DNA of 64,000 nucleotides from Brevundimonas sp. MF30-B (GCF_004683885.1 NZ_CP038440.1:1708001-1772000); one strand, 5' to 3'. Counted from the stretch's first letter, positions 3,016 to 16,381 are shown. Translations and numbers: made by a program. The notes: a model not told the origin generated them from the sequence alone.

Positions 3016-3092
3016 TGGTCGGAGTGGCAGGATTCGAACCTGCGACCCCCGCGTCCCGAACGCGGTGCTCTACCAGACTGAGCCACACTCCG
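3016..3092 (-). tRNA. tRNA-Pro (anticodon CGG)
   Basis: A 77-nt cloverleaf on the minus strand. The acceptor arms CGGAGTG and CACTCCG pair, the T-arm contains GGTTCGAATCC, and the anticodon stem CCGCG/CGCGG encloses the loop TTCGGGA, giving anticodon CGG. The terminal CCA is encoded. Confidence 0.96.
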
Positions 3093-3249
3093 ACTTGAGG
3101 ACGCGGCTTATAACGAGGGGGTTTGGCCCCCGCAAGCGCCTATTCTCGACCCGCGAAAATAGTCTCGAAACGGGGTGTTGCATCGCCCGCGGCCTTGGCG
3201 TATTCGACCGCCCTCCCGCCGCCGAGGCGAGCGGGAACGCCGGACCTGC

Positions 3250-3323
3250 TGGGGAATGGTGTAATGGTAACACTACGGTTTTTGGTACCGTCATTCTAGG
3301 TTCGAGTCCTAGTTCCCCAGCCA
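3250..3323 (+). tRNA. tRNA-Gln (anticodon TTG)
   Basis: A 74-nt cloverleaf on the plus strand with acceptor TGGGGAA/TTCCCCA, T-arm GGTTCGAGTCC and anticodon loop TTTTGGT, giving TTG. The CCA end is encoded. It is the last clearly core gene before the left island boundary at 3624. Confidence 0.96.
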
Positions 3324-4387: not shown

Positions 4388-5980
4388 TCAGGATCTCGAG
4401 GCTGAGGCGCAATCCACCCCCGAGAGCGACGGGCCCCGCTCCGAGCGCTTTGACGGTCGCCTTGCCGAGAAACCCGCCGAGGTTGAGCGCACCGTCAGCG
4501 AGCTGACCTCGCCAGGCCGAATGTTAAGGCCTTCGCCAAGTCCCCACAGAGGATATCCGAGGGCCACGACGGCGTCGCCGACCGCGGCGGGCTTTGTGGC
4601 GGGCTCAAGCTCATAAAATTCGGTAGCGGGAATGGTGCCATGGTCGAGCACCGCCACGTCCCGATGCTTGTCGTAGTGGCGGACCTTCACCGTGAAGGTG
4701 GTCGTATGTCTCGAGGGGTGAAGGACTTCGACTTCGCTGAGACCTTCGACGCAGTGTGCGGCAGTCACCAAGCCGACACCCGCGAGAAAAAATGCCGTGC
4801 CATTGTGTTTCAAGGGAACTTCGATGACCCAGACTGCGCGGTCGCGCCGCTCTTCGACCGTCGGCGTCAGCCTGATTGGTTTGGCCGGAAGGCTCTTATT
4901 GTAGCGCTGGGCGAGGGAGCGCACGACAGGGTCCGTCTGGCCCTTGAGGTGCGCGACATATGCGATTTTCCCTCGCAGGTGGGCCGCCAGGCTGCCCTTG
5001 CCGCCGCCGGAAGCGTATTTGGCCTGTGCTTCGGCGAGGCCGACCCTCTCGAAGGAGTGCATCATTGCGCGGATGCGGCGGATGTAGCGACGGTCGACGT
5101 TGAGGCCGGCGTTGATCTTGACGCCGGTGACCATCCGCCGCGAGTTGCGGTCGGCGTAGTGTGCCTTGTCAGGATTGATCAGGAAGCCATTGCTCGCTAT
5201 CGCCCCACGCAGCTGGGGCGCAAGTACTTCGGGCGAGAAACGACCGGCACCTGCCACTGCGGTTTCAAACAGCGTCGTCGGCGGTTGGTAGCTGGAGAAG
5301 GTGATATCGTCGGCATAACGCGTGTAGATCGCGCGTGCCGACTTGGCGACCTGCTGTAGGTCGGTATCGAGCCGATAGCAGATCATGTTTGACAGGACCG
5401 GGCTAGTGGGTGCGCCCTGCGGAAGTTGGCCCATGTGGCAGCAGAGACGGGCGACGATCTCTGCCACGCCTTTTTCGACGCCGAGTGCTCGAAGCAGGCC
5501 GACGACCCGTTTCTCGGTGATAGTGGGGAAGAAGTCCTTCAGATCCAAGTTGACGACGAAGCGCCGGCGACCATGCGCCTCAGCGTTGGTCTTTACAGAG
5601 CGGTTGGGCACGAAGCCGTGGACGGGGTGGCGCGGGCGGTAAAGCTGATCGAGTAGTGGTGCGAGCTTGCTTTGAATAATCTTCAGCCGCCGGTCAGGCG
5701 CAGTGATGGTCCGTACCTTGCCCGAACGCTTTGCGATGTTGAATTCGGAGTACATGCGCCCCCGGAACCACCAAATCTTTTTCAACTCGGCCGGGCTCAC
5801 CTCGAGGTAGGCAAGAAGCGCATCCGGATTAGCGAGTTCAGGCGGGAGAGGAATCCGGATTTGCTTACCGAACATGCGGCGGGCAGATGTCACGAGGTCC
5901 CCCTTCCAATCCGCGAGGTTGCCATGAAGCACGCGCGGGCACGATGTGTGGAGACGTTCGCTCTTAGGCCGCAGTTGCAC
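4388..5980 (-). CDS. Retron-type reverse transcriptase fused to a truncated trypsin-like domain
   Basis: Residues about 60-345 form a reverse transcriptase. NAEAH (132-136, the retron NAxxH motif), LDLKDFF (motif A), LPQGAPTSP (motif B), RYADD (catalytic YxDD at 222-225) and VTG (284-286, the retron VTG motif) are all visible. Retron RTs copy part of a structured RNA into msDNA and act with an effector in phage defence. From about residue 383 a trypsin-like fold begins: GLVTAAHC holds the catalytic His (409), RDVAVLD the Asp (441), then VVALGYPLWG. The expected GxSGG serine motif is missing, and residues 499-530 are Ser/Arg-rich, as in a wrong frame. The likely start is uncertain; ATG 5875 is an alternative. 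The protease half therefore looks inactivated or shortened. Confidence 0.87.
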   Translation of the reverse strand: MQLRPKSERLHTSCPRVLHGNLADWKGDLVTSARRMFGKQIRIPLPPELANPDALLAYLEVSPAELKKIWWFRGRMYSEFNIAKRSGKVRTITAPDRRLKIIQSKLAPLLDQLYRPRHPVHGFVPNRSVKTNAEAHGRRRFVVNLDLKDFFPTITEKRVVGLLRALGVEKGVAEIVARLCCHMGQLPQGAPTSPVLSNMICYRLDTDLQQVAKSARAIYTRYADDITFSSYQPPTTLFETAVAGAGRFSPEVLAPQLRGAIASNGFLINPDKAHYADRNSRRMVTGVKINAGLNVDRRYIRRIRAMMHSFERVGLAEAQAKYASGGGKGSLAAHLRGKIAYVAHLKGQTDPVVRSLAQRYNKSLPAKPIRLTPTVEERRDRAVWVIEVPLKHNGTAFFLAGVGLVTAAHCVEGLSEVEVLHPSRHTTTFTVKVRHYDKHRDVAVLDHGTIPATEFYELEPATKPAAVGDAVVALGYPLWGLGEGLNIRPGEVSSLTVRSTSAGFSARRPSKRSERGPSLSGVDCASASRS

Positions 5981-7068: not shown

Positions 7069-8373
7069 TCAACTCGGCGCGATCGGGATGTTGGAGATAT
7101 CCGGTGCGGGGAGGGGCGCGCCGATGGCGTCTGCGTAGGCCTGGTCGGACACGGAAGCCAGAAAGGGGGCGGCGTCTTCGGGCGTCGCCTGAAAGCGGGG
7201 CGCCGGGTTGGGAACCGTGAAGGCGGGCGTGCCGATGCGGCCGTCTCGCATGACGACGGCGCCGAAGCCGCTCACATAGACGCCGTTGACGTGCGTCGCG
7301 CCGTAGTGGTGGAAGAGGTGGTAGGCGAGCAGACCGGCTTGGCGTCTGAGGTGGGGCAACATGAGGTCTGCGGCTTCGATGCCGTGCTCCTGCAACGCTA
7401 TGAACCAGGGACGGTCGCCCGAGAACTGACGCGCCGCCTGACGCATCGCCTCGAGCATCGGTTTGCTCGCATCGTCCTGCCGATGGCTGCGCATGGCCAA
7501 AACCACGCCTCCGTCGTCACCCATGGCCCCCGCCGCATGGATGTTCGCTCCGAAGGCCGTTTGGCAGGCCTCGTGGAAGCGCTTGGGATCGCTCATCGGG
7601 GTGTCGCCGAGATGCTCTTGGTAGTCGAGCCGCTCGATCTTGAACCCCGGTCGCTTCAGCGATGCCGGCCCGTTTTCCGCCAGAACGGCGCGCACGGATT
7701 TCAGGAGGGCGGTCCGGCTCGCGTCATTGGGCGAGAGACGGGCGTCGAGCGTAACGAGCACGATCTCGCGACAGCCGCTGCCGAGCCGGGCGTCGAGCGC
7801 CGGCTCAAGTGCCGCCATGACGCGGTAGAAGTCGCGGCGATGGATCTGGCGGCCAGCGTCGGCCGACAGACTCTTGCACTCCACCTCGCCAGAGAACGCG
7901 CCGCTGTGGAACAGGAGGTCGTAGCGAGCCTGTCCTTCGAGATCAGGAAAATCAACATCATAGCCCGCGTCCATCAGACGCTGGGCGAGATCCAGTTCGA
8001 GATAGAGCGGCGCGAAGCCGACGTCGGATTTGATCGCGTCGCGGAGCCGACCTTCCAGAGCCAGACGACCGGCAGGCGTGAGCTGTCGATGGATTTCAAC
8101 GCAGGTTCCGGCGAAGTTCAACGCCGCCAGGATCGAGGCGTCGGCATATTGGGCGCTGAGCCGGCCTTCCTTCTCCAGAACCTCCGCCTGGAAGGCGATC
8201 CCCATCTCCAGCCAGTGGTAATCGGAGACGATCTTCCAGCGATAGCGCGACCGGTCGACCTCGCTCGAGAAATGCTCGGCGCGACGAAACCAGCGGTCCG
8301 CGCCGACCAGATCGAGCATCGGGCGAATGTAGGTTGAAAGGTCGTTGAGATCGTCTGGCAGGGCGATCCGCAT
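7069..8373 (-). CDS. Uncharacterised protein with PD-(D/E)XK-like nuclease core
   Basis: A 434-residue soluble protein starting at MRIALPDDLNDL. I do not recognise a named family. In the middle, RYDLLFHSG followed about ten residues later by GEVECKSLSADAGR has the spacing of a PD-(D/E)XK nuclease core (Asp, then ExK-like ECK). Downstream come LVTLDARLSPND and, near the C-terminus, NGVYVSGFGAVVMRDGRIG. It is transcribed divergently from the MazG/UDG pair across 171 bp. The context suggests a defence or DNA-processing role. The nuclease reading is an inference from one motif pair. Confidence 0.6.
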   Translation of the reverse strand: MRIALPDDLNDLSTYIRPMLDLVGADRWFRRAEHFSSEVDRSRYRWKIVSDYHWLEMGIAFQAEVLEKEGRLSAQYADASILAALNFAGTCVEIHRQLTPAGRLALEGRLRDAIKSDVGFAPLYLELDLAQRLMDAGYDVDFPDLEGQARYDLLFHSGAFSGEVECKSLSADAGRQIHRRDFYRVMAALEPALDARLGSGCREIVLVTLDARLSPNDASRTALLKSVRAVLAENGPASLKRPGFKIERLDYQEHLGDTPMSDPKRFHEACQTAFGANIHAAGAMGDDGGVVLAMRSHRQDDASKPMLEAMRQAARQFSGDRPWFIALQEHGIEAADLMLPHLRRQAGLLAYHLFHHYGATHVNGVYVSGFGAVVMRDGRIGTPAFTVPNPAPRFQATPEDAAPFLASVSDQAYADAIGAPLPAPDISNIPIAPS

Positions 8374-8544
8374 CGTGGTTCTCCGGAGCATCCAGGTCAG
8401 TGGCCCGCAGGTTGACGGAAAAGGTGTGGTTGACCGGCAGGTCAGAGCGTCCGCCATGCCCGACAGGCGCGCGTAACGGGGGTCGCCGAGAAAAGAGAAT
8501 CAATCAACTGAAGGATGTGTCGCGATCGTTGGGAGGGCAGGGGA

Positions 8545-9723
8545 ATGGCCGGCGAGTTCACTGAGTTGACCGTGGCGGCCTACTCTGATGAGGCCGCCAC
8601 GACCGATCGGGGCGTCGAGGGGCAGTCGCTGGCCTTTCCTTTGCTAGGCCTGTTCGGTGAAACCGGTAGCCTTCTCAGCGAGCTGAAAAAGAAGCAACGC
8701 GACAGCGCGTCGTACCGGGGATATTCGGCGGCGGTCACGGAGGAGCTCGGGGATGTCCTCTGGTATCTGGCGACGATCGCGCGACGGGGGAAGGTGCCGC
8801 TGAGCGCTGTGGCTGCGCACCTGTACCGGAAGGATCGGACGTGGACGGGGGTCGAGGATGACGCCCTGACCTTCCGGGCGCTGCAGCCGCATCCCATTCC
8901 ATATTCGGACGCGCCCACCCCCGCCTTCGAGAAGACCCTGCTGACCCTCGCCGCCGACGTCGGCGCCATGATTTCGGACTTTCAGGCCGGGGTGCTGATC
9001 CAGGGCGGCGACGCTCTGGCGCTTCGGCTGGTCGCGATCCTCAAGCGATTGCTGACCGCCTCACGCGAGGCCGGCCTCACCCTCGAGGCGGCGGCGGTGA
9101 AGAACCGGCACAAGATCCTGGATCGCTGGCCCGTCGAAAAACGCTACCCGGCGGCCTTCGACGCCGAGGCCGATCCGGATGAACGGTTGCCCCGGCGGCT
9201 GGTCATCGACCTGTTCGAAAAGTCCGTCGGCGGGCGCGACTTCGTGTTCCAGCGATGCAACGCCCTGTTCATCGGCGATCGCCTGACGGACAACGCCCAC
9301 GAACCGGACGACTACCGGTTTCACGATGTCTTCCACTTCGCCTTCGTGGCCGTGCTGGGCTGGTCGCCGGTGACCCGATCCCTGTTGCGGCTGAAGCGGA
9401 AGAGCGATCCGCAGCTCGACGAAACGGAGGACGGCGCCCGGGCGATCCTGATCGAGGAGGGGGTGTCCACCTGGGTGTTCGGCCAGGCCGCCAGGCTGCG
9501 CTACTTCGAGGGCATGAAGGCCGGCGAACTGCCGCTCGACCTGCTCAAGCAGATCCGTGAGTTCGTCAGCGGCTACGAACCGGAGCATCTTCCCCTCTGG
9601 CTCTGGGAAGAGGCGATCCTGGAAGGCTACGCCGCCTTCCGCTTTCTGCGAGAGCATCGACGCGGGCGCATCACGCTCGATTTCGAGACGCGGCAATTGC
9701 GTGTAGAGCCGCTCGCGCCATGA
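8545..9723 (+). CDS. MazG-like pyrophosphohydrolase with large C-terminal domain
   Basis: A 392-residue protein starting at an ATG preceded by a strong GGGAGGGCAGGGG site. Residues about 20-90 carry a MazG-type core: LFGETGSLLSELKKK (ExxxxxxE) and, after a gap, VTEELGDVLWYLATIARR (ExxD). MazG enzymes hydrolyse nucleoside triphosphates to monophosphates. The rest is a separate domain whose most conserved-looking part is EPDDYRFHDVFHFAF, a cluster of Asp and His that could bind metal, followed by ILIEEGVSTWVFGQ and LPLWLWEEAILEGY. Its stop overlaps the start of the UDG-like gene by 4 bp (ATGA), so the two are translationally coupled and probably work on the same nucleotide pathway. Confidence 0.75.
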   Translation: MAGEFTELTVAAYSDEAATTDRGVEGQSLAFPLLGLFGETGSLLSELKKKQRDSASYRGYSAAVTEELGDVLWYLATIARRGKVPLSAVAAHLYRKDRTWTGVEDDALTFRALQPHPIPYSDAPTPAFEKTLLTLAADVGAMISDFQAGVLIQGGDALALRLVAILKRLLTASREAGLTLEAAAVKNRHKILDRWPVEKRYPAAFDAEADPDERLPRRLVIDLFEKSVGGRDFVFQRCNALFIGDRLTDNAHEPDDYRFHDVFHFAFVAVLGWSPVTRSLLRLKRKSDPQLDETEDGARAILIEEGVSTWVFGQAARLRYFEGMKAGELPLDLLKQIREFVSGYEPEHLPLWLWEEAILEGYAAFRFLREHRRGRITLDFETRQLRVEPLAP

Positions 9724-10403
9724 CCCCTTCAGAGTTCGTCTGCGCCCTTCAGGCCGCCACCCTGCCCAGCGTCTTCAATCCCTGGCGCGACCAGTGCGCC
9801 GCCTGCGACCTCGAGGATGCGCCGGCCCTGCGCCGGGAGAATCTGCGGCTCTTCCTGGAGCGCGCGCTCGAAACGCGGGTGACGACGATGTGGATCGCCC
9901 GGGACCTCGGCTATCGCGGCGGCCGGCGCACCGGCGTGCCCCTGACCGACGAGGTCCATCTGTCGGAGGCCTCGGCTCTGCTGGGCGATATCGGCCTGGT
10001 GCGCGCCACCGACGGCCCCATCGTCGCCGAACGGACGGCGGCGGTGATCTGGCGGGTGCTGGCGCAGGTGCGGCAGCCGGTGGTGTTGTGGAACGTCTTC
10101 CCCTTCCACCCCCATCTGGCGGACGACCCCATGTCCAACCGCTGCCATACGCGCGCCGAACGCGACGAGACCTGGCCGCTGCTGGAAGCGCTGATCGCCA
10201 TGGTCAGACCCGAAAAGATCGTCGCGATCGGGCGGGACGCCAGCGCGGCGCTGGCGGAGCTTGGCGTGCCGGCCTCGGCCGTGCGCCATCCGAGCTACGG
10301 CGGACAGGCCGAGTTCATGGCCGGCATGTACGACCTATATGAGGTGACGCGCGACGAGCCGCCCCTATTCGGCCGACTGGAGCCCGTCGCCGTCCGCCAC
10401 TAA
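9720..10403 (+). CDS. Uracil-DNA glycosylase superfamily protein
   Basis: A 227-residue protein resembling the UDG superfamily. TLPSVFNPW near the N-terminus occupies the place of the water-activating motif. IARDLGYRGGRRTGVPLTDE (59-78) and VLWNVFPFHPH follow, then KIVAIGRDA and VRHPSYGG (188-195), which matches the HPS leucine-loop motif of UDGs. The usual motif-1 residues differ, so the base specificity cannot be predicted and a modified base is as likely as uracil. It is coupled to the MazG-domain gene by a 4-bp overlap. Its 3' end overlaps the convergent TS-like gene by 39 bp. Confidence 0.75.
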   Translation: MTPSEFVCALQAATLPSVFNPWRDQCAACDLEDAPALRRENLRLFLERALETRVTTMWIARDLGYRGGRRTGVPLTDEVHLSEASALLGDIGLVRATDGPIVAERTAAVIWRVLAQVRQPVVLWNVFPFHPHLADDPMSNRCHTRAERDETWPLLEALIAMVRPEKIVAIGRDASAALAELGVPASAVRHPSYGGQAEFMAGMYDLYEVTRDEPPLFGRLEPVAVRH

Positions 10404-11150
10404 GGCGTCGCAGGCCTGCAGAAGGGCCTTGATCTCCGCCCGGCTGGCCCTGGGCTGGTCGATGACCGCATGGGTGGAGACGATGGTCAGAGACCCGACG
10501 CCGATCTTGGTCTCCTCGGCGACGAAGGCCATCAAACGGCCCAGGCCGATCAGGTTTCCGAGCAGTTTCTCGACGTAGTAGTGGTTCCGATACATGACCG
10601 TGAGATCGAGCCGGTCGCCGTCGGGCGTCTTTCTGACTTTGAAGCTCCCGTGACTGAGGCATTGTCCGCCGTACGGCGAACGGCTGACATCGCGGGCCGG
10701 ATCGAAGAGGGTCAGTTCGAACTTGTTGCGCGCCTTGACGGCCGGATCGGAAATCCGGTCGATGATGTCGGCCAGCTGGTTGATCACCGTGCCGCCGGGC
10801 GTGGGCATGTTGATCATCCGCTCGAAATAGTAGCCGGACCAGCGATCGTCGCGGCCGGCGGCGGGCAGGACTCGCGTCATGAACCGGTCGTAGAAAGCCG
10901 GCGCCCCGTAACGACGGTGCAGGGCCGCAGGAAAGAGGGTGTTGGCCACCGTTTCGATGGGTTTGACTCCCTTGGCTTGGAGAAAGGCGTCCACCGTCGC
11001 CACGACGGGATCGGCGAGGGTCGCGCCGCCGACGGGATCGGCGATGTCGAGGATCACATTGTGCGCCTCGTTTCCATGACGGATCACCGCGCGCATGGCC
11101 TCGCGCCAGGCGGTCGCGCAATCAGGCTGCGTCGGAACGGGAAGGTACAT
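10365..11150 (-). CDS. Thymidylate-synthase-like protein
   Basis: A 261-residue protein whose second half follows the thymidylate synthase / dCMP hydroxymethylase pattern. GGQCLSHGSF places a cysteine (164) where the nucleophile sits, LTVMYRNHYY (Arg188) matches the YQRS phosphate-binding segment, LLGNLIGLGRLMAF contains the conserved Asn (199), and GSLTIVSTHAVID has the late His (227) but lacks the Tyr of HxY. The first half is unlike ThyA, so the folate site may be missing. It is the last gene of a minus-strand operon with the papain-like protease (29-bp overlap). Possible roles are base modification, nucleotide sensing or a catalytically altered TS. It is not redundant with core thyA. Confidence 0.68.
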   Translation of the reverse strand: MYLPVPTQPDCATAWREAMRAVIRHGNEAHNVILDIADPVGGATLADPVVATVDAFLQAKGVKPIETVANTLFPAALHRRYGAPAFYDRFMTRVLPAAGRDDRWSGYYFERMINMPTPGGTVINQLADIIDRISDPAVKARNKFELTLFDPARDVSRSPYGGQCLSHGSFKVRKTPDGDRLDLTVMYRNHYYVEKLLGNLIGLGRLMAFVAEETKIGVGSLTIVSTHAVIDQPRASRAEIKALLQACDALVADGDGLQSAE

Positions 11151-11811
11151 CGTCGTCCTCGTCTAGGAGAGCCATGCCGAACAGCCGGGGGCCGAGGAAG
11201 CCGGCCGTCAGCCAGGCGTGACCGTCATGGCCCCAAGCCCCGCCCCAGCTGTTGCGGACCAGAACGGCGGGCTCGTCACCCACGGCGCCGTGGGCGACGG
11301 CGAGCACCGCATGCCTCAGCGCGGGGTCTGGAGACTCGGTTTGGGCCGGTCTCACCACCCCCTCCGGATCCGGGGCGTAGAAGCTGCGCGAGAGGGTGAT
11401 GAGAAGGATGACGGGTCTTCCCTCGTCGAGCCGGGCGATCAGGCGCGTCCAGTCCGGTGTGGCCGGCTCGCCAGCACGGCGGTGGACGTCGCCCGTCTGG
11501 GCGGGCGGCGACCAGGCGGCGTCATTGGCGGGCGCGGCCGGACGATAGGGCCAGTCCGTCTCGGGGGGCTGTCCGTCGAGCCGCAAGGCCTCCAGCAGGG
11601 CGGGCAGGGTGGTCCCGACCGACGCCGGGCGACCCGCGCGACGTTGGGCCCGAAAAAAGATCGCCTCGCAGGAGAGCGGCGTCCAGCCCGCGCGCACCGC
11701 GGCGTGAAGATCGCTGGCGGCGAAGGCCAGACAGGTCGGCCGCGGCCCCTGGTCGCGGACGGGTCCGAGGCGCGGGCGCAGGTCCCGATCGAGCCGGACG
11801 GCCGCCTTCAT
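11122..11811 (-). CDS. Papain-like (C1-type) cysteine peptidase
   Basis: A 229-residue protein with the complete papain signature. VRDQGPRPTCLAFAASD gives the oxyanion Gln21 and nucleophile Cys27, RHAVLAVAHG gives His167, and LVRNSWGGAWGHDGHAW gives Asn187 in the NSWG motif. There is no signal peptide, so it should act in the cytoplasm, which is unusual for this class in bacteria. It begins with ATGA overlapping the stop of the ImmA/IrrE-chagasin gene. Because chagasin-type domains are inhibitors of exactly this peptidase class, the pair looks like a protease and its restraint encoded together. Confidence 0.82.
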   Translation of the reverse strand: MKAAVRLDRDLRPRLGPVRDQGPRPTCLAFAASDLHAAVRAGWTPLSCEAIFFRAQRRAGRPASVGTTLPALLEALRLDGQPPETDWPYRPAAPANDAAWSPPAQTGDVHRRAGEPATPDWTRLIARLDEGRPVILLITLSRSFYAPDPEGVVRPAQTESPDPALRHAVLAVAHGAVGDEPAVLVRNSWGGAWGHDGHAWLTAGFLGPRLFGMALLDEDDDVPSRSDAA

Positions 11812-12821
11812 GCGGCCGCCAGACGGTGGCGCCGTTCCGCGCGCGACAGGCCGCTGGCCTCCGGGCCGGTGAGATCGAACGGCAGGGTGAAGGCGGCGAT
11901 CGGCGCATCGGGGAGCCAGGGCCTGCGCTGTTCGAGATGCACCAGCCCCTGGGCGTCCTCGGGCGGGGCGGCGAGAACCTGCCGCAGATTGGGCCCGCCG
12001 ACGGCGTCGTCGTCCAGGTCGAGACGGGTGTCCCGCACCAGGCTGAACCCGCTCGCCGCAAGCGTGTCGAAATCCCACAGGTAGCCGGCCCCGCCCTGTT
12101 CGGGCAGTCGGATCACGAACAGATCGTTGCGGCTGCCGTCGATCCGGCCGCCCTCGTCCCTGTCGGTCAGCAGCCAGACATCGCCCCGGTAGGACGGCGG
12201 CGTATAATCCGCCAGCAGCGCCGCCTTCAGGGCGCGGGGCCGCACGGCGAGCAGCGACGCCCGGGTCGCCGCCTCGATCAGCGCATAGCGCTCGAGGGTG
12301 CGGATCGTCGCCTCATAGCTGGCCCCGAGCCGCAGGGAGAGCTGGTAGACCACCTCGGGACGTTTCAGCTCGGCGAGACGCCATGCTTGGCGGGCGCAAT
12401 GGGCGAGCACGAGCCACTTCGGCATGAGGAAGGCCACGGCGAAGGCGTCCGCCTCGGTCTCCTGAAATCCCGTTGCGGCGTCCCGCCCCTGCGGGGCGCG
12501 GCGAAGGATCTGATCTTCGTCGTCGAGACTGGGCTGGTGTCGAAGGAGGCAGTGACCGAGCTCGTGGGCCGCGGTGAAGCGCTGGATGCTCAGCGGTCTT
12601 TCCGTGGTGACGAGGATCCCGGGCGAGGGGAGGTTCAGGAACGCCCCGAGCAGGCCGGTCAGCGGCCGCATCATCAGCGGCACGCCGAGATCCGCGATCA
12701 CCGCGAACACATCGACCCCCGCGGGCCGGGCGTCCTGCTGCGCCCGCAGATCGATCTGGCGATGCAGCCTGCCTGCGGCCAGGGTCCCGTTGCGCACCGC
12801 CTCCTGATAGCTCCGGGCCAT
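11808..12821 (-). CDS. ImmA/IrrE metallopeptidase fused to a chagasin-like domain
   Basis: Residues about 30-200 are an ImmA/IrrE (M78) peptidase: HELGH at 86-90 is the zinc motif and ETEADAFAVAFLMP (121 on) supplies the third ligand. This family cleaves XRE-type repressors or related regulators. Residues about 210-337 resemble the chagasin (I42) cysteine-protease inhibitor fold: GAGYLWDFDTL corresponds to the GYxW loop and LEQRRPWLP to the RPW loop. The XRE gene lies 3 bp upstream and the papain-like protease overlaps downstream. The arrangement predicts that cleavage of the XRE protein, or of this protein itself, releases the protease. That mechanism is inference; the motifs are visible. 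Confidence 0.78.
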   Translation of the reverse strand: MARSYQEAVRNGTLAAGRLHRQIDLRAQQDARPAGVDVFAVIADLGVPLMMRPLTGLLGAFLNLPSPGILVTTERPLSIQRFTAAHELGHCLLRHQPSLDDEDQILRRAPQGRDAATGFQETEADAFAVAFLMPKWLVLAHCARQAWRLAELKRPEVVYQLSLRLGASYEATIRTLERYALIEAATRASLLAVRPRALKAALLADYTPPSYRGDVWLLTDRDEGGRIDGSRNDLFVIRLPEQGGAGYLWDFDTLAASGFSLVRDTRLDLDDDAVGGPNLRQVLAAPPEDAQGLVHLEQRRPWLPDAPIAAFTLPFDLTGPEASGLSRAERRHRLAAA

Positions 12822-12824
12822 CGT

Positions 12825-13181
12825 TCAGGCGTCGCCGGGCTTGGCGCGCGAGCGCAGATAGTCGGCGAACCGGGCCAGCTCTTCCCGGTCGCCCTGGGAC
12901 AGATCCGCGGCCTGTCGCGCCAGATGGGCGACGTCCGGCGGCAGGGCGGCCTGCTCCTCCTCTCCGGTCAGATAACCGACGGACTGGCGGTAGAGGCGGG
13001 CCAGGCGCGTCAGTTCGATCGCCTCGACCCGGCGCTGACCGGTCTCGATCCCGCTCAGCGCCGTCCGGTTCAGCTTGAGATAGGCGGCGACCTCTTCCTG
13101 TTTCAGGCCGAGGTATTCCCGCGCCTCGCGAAGGCGTCCGCCCAGGGTTCTGCGCGCCGTCTCGTCGTCGAGGTCGGTCAT
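12825..13181 (-). CDS. XRE-family helix-turn-helix repressor
   Basis: A 118-residue protein with a Cro/CI-type HTH at residues about 12-66: LREAREYLGLKQEEVAAYL, then LNRTALSGIETGQRRV, then ELTRLARLYRQSVGYLTG. The helical tail (SQGDREELARFADYL) is typical of repressors cleaved by ImmA-type peptidases. It begins with ATGA overlapping the preceding small gene and is followed after 3 bp by the ImmA/IrrE gene. It probably represses its own operon through the palindromes at 13602-13685. Confidence 0.88.
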   Translation of the reverse strand: MTDLDDETARRTLGGRLREAREYLGLKQEEVAAYLKLNRTALSGIETGQRRVEAIELTRLARLYRQSVGYLTGEEEQAALPPDVAHLARQAADLSQGDREELARFADYLRSRAKPGDA

Positions 13182-13510
13182 GCGGCCCCCGGATGCTTCT
13201 TGCGCCAGGCGGATTCGATGCGCGGCAGCATGTGGTCGAGGGCCGACTGGATCGAATCGTAGCCGCCGGTGCGGACGATGTCCTTCGGCTCGTAACCGAG
13301 GATCGGTTCGAGGGCGCAGGTCAGATCGACCACGGTGAGGGAGTCCAGCCTGATTTTCGTCGTCGCCAGACTGGCGGGCGGCACGGGGAGGGCCACGCCC
13401 TGCATAGGCGCCTCGGCCTCGGCCAGCCCCGTCAACTCCGCGAGCAGGCAGGCGCTGACGGCGGCGGCGGGATAGGCGACGACCTTGGGCTTTTCTTCGA
13501 CGTCCGGCAT
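13178..13510 (-). CDS. Small protein of unknown function, first gene of the protease operon
   Basis: A 110-residue protein starting MPDVEEKPKVVAYP. No family recognised. The N-terminal half is Ala/Pro-rich; the C-terminal half (LTVVDLTCALEPILGYEP, then YDSIQSALDHMLPRI) is helical. It overlaps the XRE start by 4 bp. In ImmA/XRE cassettes a small leading gene can encode a partner of the regulator, but nothing here proves that. Confidence 0.6.
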   Translation of the reverse strand: MPDVEEKPKVVAYPAAAVSACLLAELTGLAEAEAPMQGVALPVPPASLATTKIRLDSLTVVDLTCALEPILGYEPKDIVRTGGYDSIQSALDHMLPRIESAWRKKHPGAA

Positions 13511-13601
13511 GGCGATCTCCAAATCCGACACAATACCGATGTAATGTTGGATAATCGAACATGCAAGGCGCTGGCTCGCACAATGGTCGGATATGTCGAA
13601 A

Positions 13602-13630
13602 ACGATATCATTCTGACGCCGTGATATCGT
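13602..13630. promoter_or_regulatory. Inverted repeat ACGATATCA-N11-TGATATCGT, likely operator
   Basis: A perfect 9-bp inverted repeat with an 11-bp spacer in the 184-bp region between the divergent protease operon and hipBA. Size and symmetry suit a dimeric XRE or HipB regulator. Confidence 0.6.
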
Positions 13631-13663
13631 ACTATGCATTGAATCTGTTGCATCCGACGCGGA

Positions 13664-13685
13664 TTGATGTATTTATCGACATCAA
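13664..13685. promoter_or_regulatory. Inverted repeat TTGATGT-N8-ACATCAA, likely operator
   Basis: A perfect 7-bp inverted repeat with an 8-bp spacer ending 9 bp before the hipB start codon. Binding here would block hipBA transcription or translation initiation, so HipB autoregulation is the simplest reading. Confidence 0.6.
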
Positions 13686-13694
13686 AGGAAGGCG

Positions 13695-14288
13695 ATGATG
13701 GCGGATAGAGTATCAAGACGGGCTGGTCTGGGCGATCTGGCCGCGTCGCTCCGCGCCGCGCGGGCAGCCAAGGGTTGGAGCCAGCGCGAACTCGGCGGCC
13801 GGGCCGGATTGCCTCAGGCGCAGATCTCCAAGATCGAGACCGCGGAGGTGGATCCGCAGGTCTCCACCCTTCTGGAGCTCGCCCGCTCGCTCGACCTCGA
13901 TCTGCGGCTGGTTCCGCGCGTGGCCCTGACGGCCGTGGAGGCGACGGTGAAGGACGCGGTCCGCCGCGCCGGCGAGCGCGACATCATCGGGACGCTGAAC
14001 GCCTTGGGGCGGCTGGCTCCCCCATCGGTCGCGGGACCTCACGGCGACGACCTGAGGCTGACGATAGAGGCGCTCAGGACGATCGCACCCCATCTGGGAA
14101 CGGAGGTCGCCCGCTATGTCCTGACCCAGTCCCGGGATCAGCTGGCCGGGGCCGCAGAGGACGGCGACCCCGATGACGCCGAACGCGCGCGGGAGACCGT
14201 CATGCGAAACCTCAGATCGCTTTACGACACCCATTCTCAGGCCGCCGCCTCAGCCCGGCCGGCCTATTCCCTCGATGACGAGGACTGA
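13695..14288 (+). CDS. HipB-like XRE antitoxin
   Basis: A 197-residue protein with an N-terminal HTH (LRAARAAKGWSQRELGGRAG, then LPQAQISKIETAEVDPQVST) and a long helical C-terminal extension. It is about twice the length of E. coli HipB. An AAAGGAAGG site precedes the double ATG. It is followed after 2 bp by the HipA-type kinase, the normal order for hipBA. It should bind the palindromes upstream and neutralise HipA. The extension may give extra toxin contacts or oligomerisation. Confidence 0.85.
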   Translation: MMADRVSRRAGLGDLAASLRAARAAKGWSQRELGGRAGLPQAQISKIETAEVDPQVSTLLELARSLDLDLRLVPRVALTAVEATVKDAVRRAGERDIIGTLNALGRLAPPSVAGPHGDDLRLTIEALRTIAPHLGTEVARYVLTQSRDQLAGAAEDGDPDDAERARETVMRNLRSLYDTHSQAAASARPAYSLDDED

Positions 14289-14290
14289 CC

Positions 14291-15511
14291 GTGGTCGCCG
14301 ACGCGCTTGAAATTCAACTGGAAGGCCGGACGATCGGCGCCCTGACCGCCCTGGGCGGCGATCGATCCATTCTCACCTTCACCGACGCCTATGCCGAGGA
14401 TCCTGACCGGCCGCTCCTGAGCCTCGGCTTGAGAAACGCCCAGGGCGCGCTGCTGACCGACCACGCCGTGGTCCAGACCCGTGTCCACCCCTTCTTCTCC
14501 AACCTGCTGCCTGAGGGCGGACTCCGGGACTACCTGGCGCGCCGCGCCGGGGTGAAGGCCGTGCGCGAATACGCCCTTCTGCAGGTTCTGGGCTCGGATC
14601 TCCCGGGCGGCGTGACCCTGGTCCCCGTCGGCGAGCGACGCGCTGACAAAGAGGAGCCCGCGATCTCTGACCGCGCCGGTCAGGCGGGCGGACCGCTGCG
14701 CTTCTCCCTCGCCGGCGTACAGCTGAAATTCTCGGCCTCTTTGGAAGGCCGGGACCGCCTGACCATACCGGCGAGCGGGGCGGGGGGGGATTGGATCGTC
14801 AAACTGCCGTCGCCGCGTTGGGACGGCGTGGCCGAGAATGAGTTCTCGATGATGACCCTCGCCTCGGCGGTCGGCCTCGATGCGCCGGAGGTGCGGCTGA
14901 CGGGTCTCGACGCGATCGAAGGCCTGCCGGCTGACGTCGGCCGAGGCGCCGGCCAGGCCTTCGCGGTGCGTCGCTTCGATCGGGAGGCCGACGGGCGGCG
15001 CGTCCATATCGAGGACTTCGCCCAGGTCTTCGGCGTCTATCCCGAAGAGAAGTACGAGCGGGCGCGCTACCGGTCGATCCTGCGTGTCCTGTGGCACGAG
15101 ATCGGCGAGGCCGCCGCGCGGGAGTTCATCGGCAGGCTGGTGTTCAACACCCTGATCGGCAACGCCGACATGCATCTGAAGAACTGGTCGTTGATCTACC
15201 CCGATGGCCGCACGCCGTCCCTGGCGCCGGGCTACGACTTCCTGACTACGACGACCTATATCCCCGATGAGAACGCCGCTCTGCGTTATGAAACGACCCG
15301 AAGGATGGCCGGGTTCGGCGCAGAGGAACTCGTCCGGATGGCCGCCAGGGCGGGCGTGCCGGAGACGATGGCTCTGGATGCGGGGCGATGGATGGTCCAG
15401 CGGTTCCAGGACGTCTGGGCGGCGCAGAAAGCCAACCTGCCCCTGAGCGCGGCGATCCGGGAGGAGGTCGACAGCAGGCTGCGGGTCCTGCCGATCGCCG
15501 CGCTCCGCTAG
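14291..15511 (+). CDS. HipA-like serine/threonine kinase toxin
   Basis: A 406-residue protein starting with GTG. It has the HipA N-terminal domain (SLGLRNAQGALLTDHAVVQT, then FFSNLLPEGGLRDYL), the activation-type segment RFSLAGVQLKF, the nucleotide-binding lysine block DWIVKLPSPRW, and the catalytic kinase motifs LVFNTLIGNADMHLKNWSL (the N-D/N region of HipA) and LAPGYDFLTT. HipA proteins phosphorylate tRNA ligases such as GltX and arrest growth. It ends 3 bp from the convergent DUF2971 gene. All kinase motifs look intact. Confidence 0.87.
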   Translation: MVADALEIQLEGRTIGALTALGGDRSILTFTDAYAEDPDRPLLSLGLRNAQGALLTDHAVVQTRVHPFFSNLLPEGGLRDYLARRAGVKAVREYALLQVLGSDLPGGVTLVPVGERRADKEEPAISDRAGQAGGPLRFSLAGVQLKFSASLEGRDRLTIPASGAGGDWIVKLPSPRWDGVAENEFSMMTLASAVGLDAPEVRLTGLDAIEGLPADVGRGAGQAFAVRRFDREADGRRVHIEDFAQVFGVYPEEKYERARYRSILRVLWHEIGEAAAREFIGRLVFNTLIGNADMHLKNWSLIYPDGRTPSLAPGYDFLTTTTYIPDENAALRYETTRRMAGFGAEELVRMAARAGVPETMALDAGRWMVQRFQDVWAAQKANLPLSAAIREEVDSRLRVLPIAALR

Positions 15512-15514
15512 GCG

Positions 15515-16381
15515 TCAGTCGATCTCGACCGAGAAGGAGTTGGTCGACAGGCTCGCCTTTCGCACCGGGAGGTGAGGGACCCTGGAGCGGGCCAGCAGAT
15601 CCCGAAGTCTCGCCTCATTGTCCGACGACATCCTCGGGCCGAGGATCACGGAAAGCAGGCCGTCGGGCTGGAACGGCAGGCTGGTCTGCCGCGGCGCCGT
15701 GTAGACGATCCGGACCTCCCGCTCATACGCCCAGTCCGCGGCCTTGGTGTAGAACACCAGCTTGTCGCTCTCCGCCTGACGCAGATTGTCGTCCGAGTAG
15801 CCGGTGCGTTTCCGCGCCGAGAGCTCCAGGGCCAGGCTGAGCGGATAGGTCGGGCGATGGGTCGAGTAGGACACATAGCCGAAGTTCGAGAGGCGGCGCT
15901 CGAAAGCGCCGCCCGTGAAATGCAGGCAGGCTCCCTCGTAGCTGTTGGCGTAGTGCGACCAGAGCAGAGGCGAATCCGAGCGGTCGCAAAAGGCGATGAT
16001 CCGGGCGCCCTGCTGTATTTTCGCGAAAAGCTCGCGGGCCTCGGCTTCGTATCGGGCCACGTCCGCGAACAGGACGTTCGGATCCCAGGGCTCGCCCTTG
16101 AGGCGGGCGGCCAGGGGCGCGCGTTCGCCCAGGGCCCGGGCGATGGTGACCGGACGCAGGTCGTTGAACAGATGCGGCGACAGTTCGTACGGATCGTTCA
16201 GGGCGTTGTAGGTCGAGCCGACGAGTTCGCAGGCGTTCAGGGTCCGCTCCAGGAGATCCCATGACTTCTTGCCGTTGAGGCCGACGTATTTGAAGATCGA
16301 CTGATGCGGCGACGGCCGCTTGAGGGAGACGTCGAGCGCCAGGCGTTCGAGTTCGCCGCTGGTCCAGTCTTCGAACGACAT
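15515..16381 (-). CDS. DUF2971 family protein
   Basis: A 288-residue protein. The family-type blocks are SIFKYVGLN near the N-terminus, FCDRSDSPLLWSHYANSYEG in the middle (the conserved LWxHYAxxxxG), DKLVFYTKAADWAYEREVRI (KxxxWxYExExR) and LLSVILGPRMSS near the end. Function is unknown; members are frequent in defence islands, which fits this location. It is convergent with hipA. Confidence 0.8.
   Translation of the reverse strand: MSFEDWTSGELERLALDVSLKRPSPHQSIFKYVGLNGKKSWDLLERTLNACELVGSTYNALNDPYELSPHLFNDLRPVTIARALGERAPLAARLKGEPWDPNVLFADVARYEAEARELFAKIQQGARIIAFCDRSDSPLLWSHYANSYEGACLHFTGGAFERRLSNFGYVSYSTHRPTYPLSLALELSARKRTGYSDDNLRQAESDKLVFYTKAADWAYEREVRIVYTAPRQTSLPFQPDGLLSVILGPRMSSDNEARLRDLLARSRVPHLPVRKASLSTNSFSVEID

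Follow-up and report, generated by a model that had tools for sequence, protein, structure and literature searches.

Within a 64,000-nucleotide stretch of the Brevundimonas sp. MF30-B genome (GCF_004683885.1, NZ_CP038440.1:1708001-1772000; hereafter, the window), five genes on the minus strand form an operon in which a papain-like cysteine protease (C1) directly follows an ImmA/IrrE-type metalloprotease (M78) that carries a C-terminal domain of the chagasin type (MEROPS family I42). Our favored reading, which we hold with a little more confidence than doubt, is that the operon constitutes a defence-type module, inducible by stress, that combines CapH/CapP-type control, a C1 protease held by the I42 domain, and nucleotide-modification genes. 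The cluster has the appearance of a defence system that responds to stress and has yet to be described; literature searches returned no description of this architecture, and a partial earlier description may exist.

Domain calls were taken from Pfam, NCBIfam, and PADLOC. All five genes are intact and follow the order acyl carrier protein (ACP)-like, XRE-type repressor, ImmA(M78)-I42 fusion, C1, and thymidylate synthase (TS)-like, with junctions that are overlaps of 4 or 29 bases or 3-base gaps. The same order (small protein, XRE, ImmA fusion, C1, TS-like) had been given by the initial annotation, whose limits (11122-13510) enclose four of these genes and leave the TS-like gene (10365-11150, minus strand) outside. 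It rightly listed a small protein and a five-gene operon; it overlooked the ACP-like nature of the former and, beside the latter, the MazG and UDG-like genes that converge on the operon from the plus strand.

A chagasin-type domain and its probable target protease

The fusion gene (11808-12821, minus strand) encodes a CapP-like M78 metalloprotease in approximately residues 1-203, followed by the I42 domain in approximately residues 211-318. An AlphaFold2 model of the fusion protein, built on 47 aligned sequences after those from the plasmid collection were removed, reached a pLDDT of 92 and a pTM of 0.90. In this model, residues 211-318 match the I42 inhibitors EhICP2 (Z 14.2) and chagasin (Z 12.8, or 12.4 when chagasin is taken from its cathepsin L complex), with root-mean-square deviations of 2.2-2.3 over 104-107 residues, and the N-terminal part matches IrrE (residues 3-199, Z 11.8) and CapP (residues 10-185, Z 12.5). 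Sequence-profile searches matched Amoebiasin-2 (4e-9), IrrE (1e-8), and CapP (4e-8), and the best PADLOC match is capP (2.3e-15). Pfam recognizes M78 (1.2e-10) and, slightly below its cut-off, I42 (9e-6; 26.3 bits against 27.2) in the window protein, and independent matches in its relatives number 58/58 for M78 and 46/58 for I42. The M78 zinc site is conserved (HExxH as HELGH at residues 86-90, plus the distal Glu121). All three binding-loop motifs of I42 inhibitors (G-Y/F, G-G, and R-P-W) are present in the C-terminal domain, the first within GYLW (residues 246-249) and the third within RRPW (residues 299-302); among relatives from loci with C1, Gly246 and Trp249 occur in 58/58, Tyr or Phe247 in 55/58, and Trp302 in 57/58. 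The predicted structure identifies the domain as a genuine fold of the chagasin (I42) type. A chagasin-like domain with these GYLW and RRPW loops had been proposed initially, with structure prediction as the check and a fold other than I42 as the outcome that would speak against it, and the model agrees with the proposal.

The adjoining C1 gene (11122-11811, minus strand; Pfam C1: 5.6e-9) encodes a protein of 229 amino acids. Its Cys27, His167, and Asn187, already named as catalytic in the initial annotation, are invariant together with Gln21 in 51/51 sequences and stand in the correct order of a papain active site. In profile searches against the PDB, it matched Blo t 1 (2.3e-20) and cathepsin H (1.5e-18, aligned to the mature enzyme from residue 14). 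Cys27 sits where mature papain has Cys25, and the protein starts at the mature papain N-terminus, so that it has neither the N-terminal propeptide that is usual for C1A enzymes nor a signal peptide. C1 is thus an enzyme of the C1A fold that lacks zymogen control; it should be cytoplasmic and would need another form of control. The immA and C1 genes overlap in many loci. Another genome from the window's own taxonomic order (L015) encodes I42 and a C1 peptidase as an unfused pair for comparison, with the I42 gene immediately upstream, and the first-look match to this region contains one internal stop.

A genome scan returned 80 loci, which, combined with plasmid, IMG/VR, and whole-genome matches, were reduced to 69 non-redundant systems whose gene order is conserved far beyond chance. 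I42 accompanies C1 wherever C1 occurs (59/59 loci, although L048 has a split ImmA frame), and all ten C1-less loci are without a working I42 (Fisher test: 3e-12, computed ignoring kinship); among plasmid records in which the ImmA-I42 match spans 80% of the query or more, the C1 gene is present in 15/15. The co-occurrence of protease and fusion protein beyond the window, on which the initial annotation had staked its proposal, is therefore borne out. Since the operon genes are inherited together, co-occurrence alone is weak, and the I42-like domain could instead be a neutral Ig-like appendix of ImmA that lies near C1 through a coincidence of shared operon history. We regard this as very improbable, because the loop residues that are conserved in loci with C1 are lost where C1 is gone, and because I42 tracks C1, and not TS, in evolutionary distance. 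The loss is seen in L031, which marks one of two changes of C1 state on the tree of the TS-like protein. The first change is a deep split that sets apart nine C1-less systems, and the second is L031 itself, nested among Hyphomonadaceae that have C1 (support 95/81 within 100/99). In this locus, the ImmA and TS genes overlap directly, C1 has disappeared without a remnant from an otherwise retained operon, and the inhibitor loops are disrupted, with Gln, Ser, and Glu in place of Gly246, Tyr247, and Trp302. The family C1 protease is also absent elsewhere in the four C1-less genomes examined (L031 and three others). For evolutionary distance, the partial correlation between I42 and C1 is 0.49 with TS and M78 removed (permutation p 0.0005), and that between I42 and TS is 0.03.

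Shared presence, shared loss, and correlated divergence thus lend good comparative support to the pairing of C1 with I42 as its likely inhibitor. The pair is an add-on: the conserved system of carrier protein, TS-like protein, UDG or HMUDK_hel, and MazG occurs in other lineages without it, and C1-less systems keep the other genes and lack, or have lost, the inhibitor loops. The earlier protease-inhibitor interpretation thus captured the pairing and was incomplete as to the system onto which the pair was added.

A likely operator and probable CapH/CapP-type control

The repressor gene (12825-13181, minus strand) encodes an XRE-type, CapH-like protein (Pfam HTH_31: 1.9e-10; PADLOC best match capH: 5.8e-11) and adjoins the M78 gene in 68/69 loci, the sole exception being one short retrieved stretch. 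Its likely operator is the dyad CATGTTCGATTATCCAACATT (13543-13563, minus strand), which lies approximately 33 bp upstream of the first gene. Using a weight matrix built on 16 operators of other loci with a threshold score of 12, the window operator scored 23.5. Scores of at least 12 were obtained in 34 loci, the window among them, with a few of the sites placed differently; the 256 kb of control genomic sequence gave no matches. Perfect inverted repeats occupy the corresponding upstream place in relatives. In loci of Sphingomonadales, Caulobacterales, Rhizobiales, and Rhodobacterales, the dyad has a consensus of approximately CATGTCGGAWWWTCCGACATT and lies about 30-60 bases upstream of the ACP gene, and a weaker version is found upstream in a C1-less Streptomyces plasmid. 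The dyad of many relatives lies between TTGCAT or TTGAAT and a TATA-like hexamer, the position expected of an autorepressor site; a scan of window positions 13480-13720 found no consensus sigma-70 promoter.

CapH together with CapP provides a published case of DNA-damage control, in which CapP, like PprI, cuts its repressor on binding single-stranded DNA (PMC10904395, PMC13373217), and immune operons are typically controlled in this way (PMC13373217). The adjoining genes and the upstream dyad make a switch of the CapH/CapP type likely at this operon, and the M78 part may cleave XRE when stimulated by single-stranded DNA, as we infer from CapP and PprI.

An ACP-like protein, probable nucleotide-modification genes, and genomic surroundings

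The first gene of the operon (13178-13510, minus strand) encodes a protein of 110 amino acids with a putative attachment site, Ser57, in a DSL motif. The serine is invariant in 41/41 relatives and the preceding Asp56 is conserved in >90%, giving a DS motif. Profile searches against the PDB returned only acyl carrier proteins at E-values up to 0.01 (best: 6.7e-5), and RefSeq labels the Streptomyces and Allocoleopsis orthologues as acyl carrier proteins. The Pfam PP-binding cut-off is passed by the Streptomyces orthologue, with Pfam matching 1/41 members. AcpS or PPTase-like genes lie close to the operon in 15/69 loci, mostly accompanying HMUDK_hel. The structural model aligns mainly to carrier proteins with a Z of only about 6, and Foldseek gave no significant match for it (E >0.7). 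We therefore call the protein ACP-like, on account of the modest structural match, and take it to be acyl-carrier-like on the strength of the invariant serine, the sequence profile, and the PPTase genes.

The presence of a carrier protein with an invariant serine and of PPTase genes at the same loci raises another view of C1, as a papain-fold acyltransferase or amidase that accepts an acyl group from the ACP and hands it on to a protein or nucleotide, with I42 merely docking C1 to the sensor. Papain-fold enzymes can act on carrier-bound thioesters, as BtrH does when it takes an acyl group from the carrier protein BtrI. We nevertheless consider this role improbable: the closest solved relatives of C1 are true C1A proteases with the full Gln-Cys-His-Asn set, a biosynthetic enzyme would hardly be expected to pair with a competitive inhibitor domain, and ACP, TS, and HMUDK_hel persist in C1-less loci, so that C1 is not needed for that chemistry.

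The TS-like protein (NCBIfam TIGR03283: 7.8e-11) has the catalytic Cys164 and the nucleotide-binding Asn199 invariant across relatives, the cysteine being in register with solved TS structures; 50,697 phage records contained no relatives at E 1e-5. On the plus strand, the UDG-superfamily gene (9720-10403; Pfam UDG: 7e-6) encodes the unusual motif RDLGYRGGRRTG, which is invariant in 42 relatives, and a profile of this protein had no sequence match in the PDB; it may represent a new UDG branch. It is preceded by a gene for a MazG pyrophosphohydrolase with a MazG_C domain (8515-9723; MazG_C: 1.5e-77, MazG: 1.4e-5). Genes for UDG occur in 43/69 loci and those for HMUDK_hel in 22/69, never both together, with neither in four loci, some of which are truncated; the two therefore probably serve one and the same base-directed step. 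Planctomycetes (L061, L100) have HMUDK_hel and MazG joined in a single protein, and second thymidylate synthase genes (L022, L114) or dCTP deaminase genes (L114, L117, L023) lie beside the system in some loci. MazG, the TS-like protein, and sometimes dCTP deaminase and a second TS would complete a nucleotide-modification kit. In the DefensePredictor report, validated anti-phage systems include TS and a 5-hydroxymethyldeoxyuridine (5-hmdU) kinase domain, and MazG and MazG-C are predicted (PMC13092281).

The system is found in Alpha-, Beta-, and Gammaproteobacteria, Acidobacteria, Planctomycetes, Myxococcota, Cyanobacteria, Streptomyces, and the archaeon Haloarcula. A Haloarcula marina plasmid (L025) carries the ACP-XRE-ImmA-I42-C1-TS operon with a PPTase, an HMUDK_hel nucleotide kinase domain, and a dTMP kinase. 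Within the window's own order, the system is rare, with a full-length ImmA of this family in 5/249 genomes. Many copies lie on conjugative plasmids, and that of the window is chromosomal. The abundance on plasmids, together with a TS-like, UDG or HMUDK_hel, MazG, and occasional dCTP deaminase kit that would be expected for altered bases, is compatible with a housekeeping role, in which I42 and C1 act as a feedback, without killing, on how much or when XRE or ImmA is turned over, and the locus is not a defence system but cargo that plasmids and integrated elements carry for DNA modification or anti-restriction. This seems unlikely to us, although less so than an acyltransferase role for C1, as control by a CapH/CapP-type pair typifies immune operons (PMC13373217) and the window copy is chromosomal and lies beside a retron RT-protease gene.

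That gene (4388-5980, minus strand) encodes a fusion of a reverse transcriptase and a trypsin-like domain (PADLOC RT-Protease_XI: 3.9e-162; retron-type XI) and is close to tRNA-Gln and tRNA-Pro genes (3016-3323). Divergent from mazG, a gene on the minus strand (7069-8457) encodes a 462-amino-acid protein of no clear family with a weak PD-(D/E)XK hint, relatives of which adjoin the system in L032 (1.6e-79) and L041 (1.4e-24). On the other side, a HipB-HipA pair (13695-15511, plus strand) diverges from the operon, with the inverted repeat TTGATGTcgataaatACATCAA (minus-strand reading) just upstream of the pair, and is followed by a gene for a DUF2971 protein (15515-16381, minus strand; PADLOC candidate PDC-S31: 6.8e-27). 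PADLOC found no match to the CD-NTase cyclase that a CBASS assignment calls for among the operon genes and scanned neighbours. Taken together, the TS and 5-hmdU kinase systems of DefensePredictor, the nearby retron RT-protease, and HipBA make a defence role of the locus likely.

Proposed mechanism and comparison with known systems

In the defence-type module that we favor, XRE would bind the promoter-region dyad, which was located by comparison, and keep expression of the operon low. On DNA damage or infection, sensed in relatives as single-stranded DNA, the M78 part would cut XRE and derepress the operon. Because the C1 start codon overlaps the stop codon of the fusion gene, each C1 molecule would be made, without a propeptide, next to its inhibitor, and the I42 domain would use its three loops to occlude the active site of C1. 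Activation, cleavage, or depletion of the fusion protein could then free C1 to act as a toxic or signalling arm; release as the effector step is a reasonable inference. Meanwhile, the ACP-like, TS-like, UDG (or HMUDK_hel), and MazG proteins may make or handle modified pyrimidine nucleotides or DNA bases, a chemistry probably directed against phage or plasmid DNA. More tentatively, and with somewhat less than even confidence, we propose that the sensor metalloprotease inhibits, through its own C-terminal domain, a co-translated, zymogen-free cytoplasmic papain protease, so that one trigger both derepresses the operon and unleashes the protease, atop a defence system, common to bacteria and an archaeon, that depends on a carrier protein to modify nucleotides.

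Several observations weigh against this scheme. Only two independent C1 transitions lie behind the I42/C1 association, so that its perfection rests on few events. Residue covariation between ImmA-I42 and C1 is dominated by kinship, with M78 columns scoring as often as those of I42; as I42 was not singled out over M78, covariation was not used as support for I42-C1 contact. I42 inhibitors bind tightly, and a release step for C1 must therefore exist. The weight-matrix scan of the window found no second operator near mazG-UDG. Finally, counts of PADLOC matches in flanking genes at 1e-10 were similar in case loci and control genomic stretches; matches below 1e-40 were confined to the case set and comprise about four kinds of gene, which is suggestive only.

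If the proposal is correct, a directly testable protease-inhibitor switch joins the CapH/CapP class of immune regulators, chagasin-type inhibitors gain an intracellular role in bacteria, and a carrier protein can be counted among the components of nucleotide-modification defence. Because C1 and the I42 loops are so cleanly either both present or both missing in evolution, variants in which the two are paired or unpaired lend themselves to a simple test of the central claim.

Compared to CapH-CapP, in which a helix-turn-helix repressor and an M78 protease control CBASS and other immune operons, the locus shares the XRE gene followed by the M78 gene and the upstream operator, whereas here the metallopeptidase bears an I42 domain, a C1 protease follows, and an ACP gene precedes the repressor. 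With chagasin/ICP (I42) and its C1A targets, it shares the fold, the G-Y and R-P-W loops, and a papain-type partner. I42 inhibitors are usually stand-alone proteins, and C1A proteases are usually secreted or lysosomal and have propeptides; in this system, the inhibitor forms part of a sensor of the DNA-damage type, and the fusion protein and the protease both appear to be cytoplasmic. The M78 protease/repressor logic is also that of Deinococcus PprI/IrrE-DdrO, where sensing of single-stranded DNA is published for PprI/IrrE (PMC10904395); unlike the system here, the Deinococcus pair has no such inhibitor domain, C1 protease, or nucleotide-modification operon. The DefensePredictor TS and 5-hmdU-kinase systems (PMC13092281) have TS-family and HMUDK-type proteins in common with it, and MazG and MazG-C among the predictions; the available portion of that text names no ACP, ImmA, or papain-type protease, all of which are present here. 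Phage thymidine hypermodification, lastly, uses a comparable kit of TS-like, HMUDK_hel, and nucleotide pyrophosphatase proteins, whereas here this kit resides on plasmids and chromosomes and is joined by a carrier protein and a protease.

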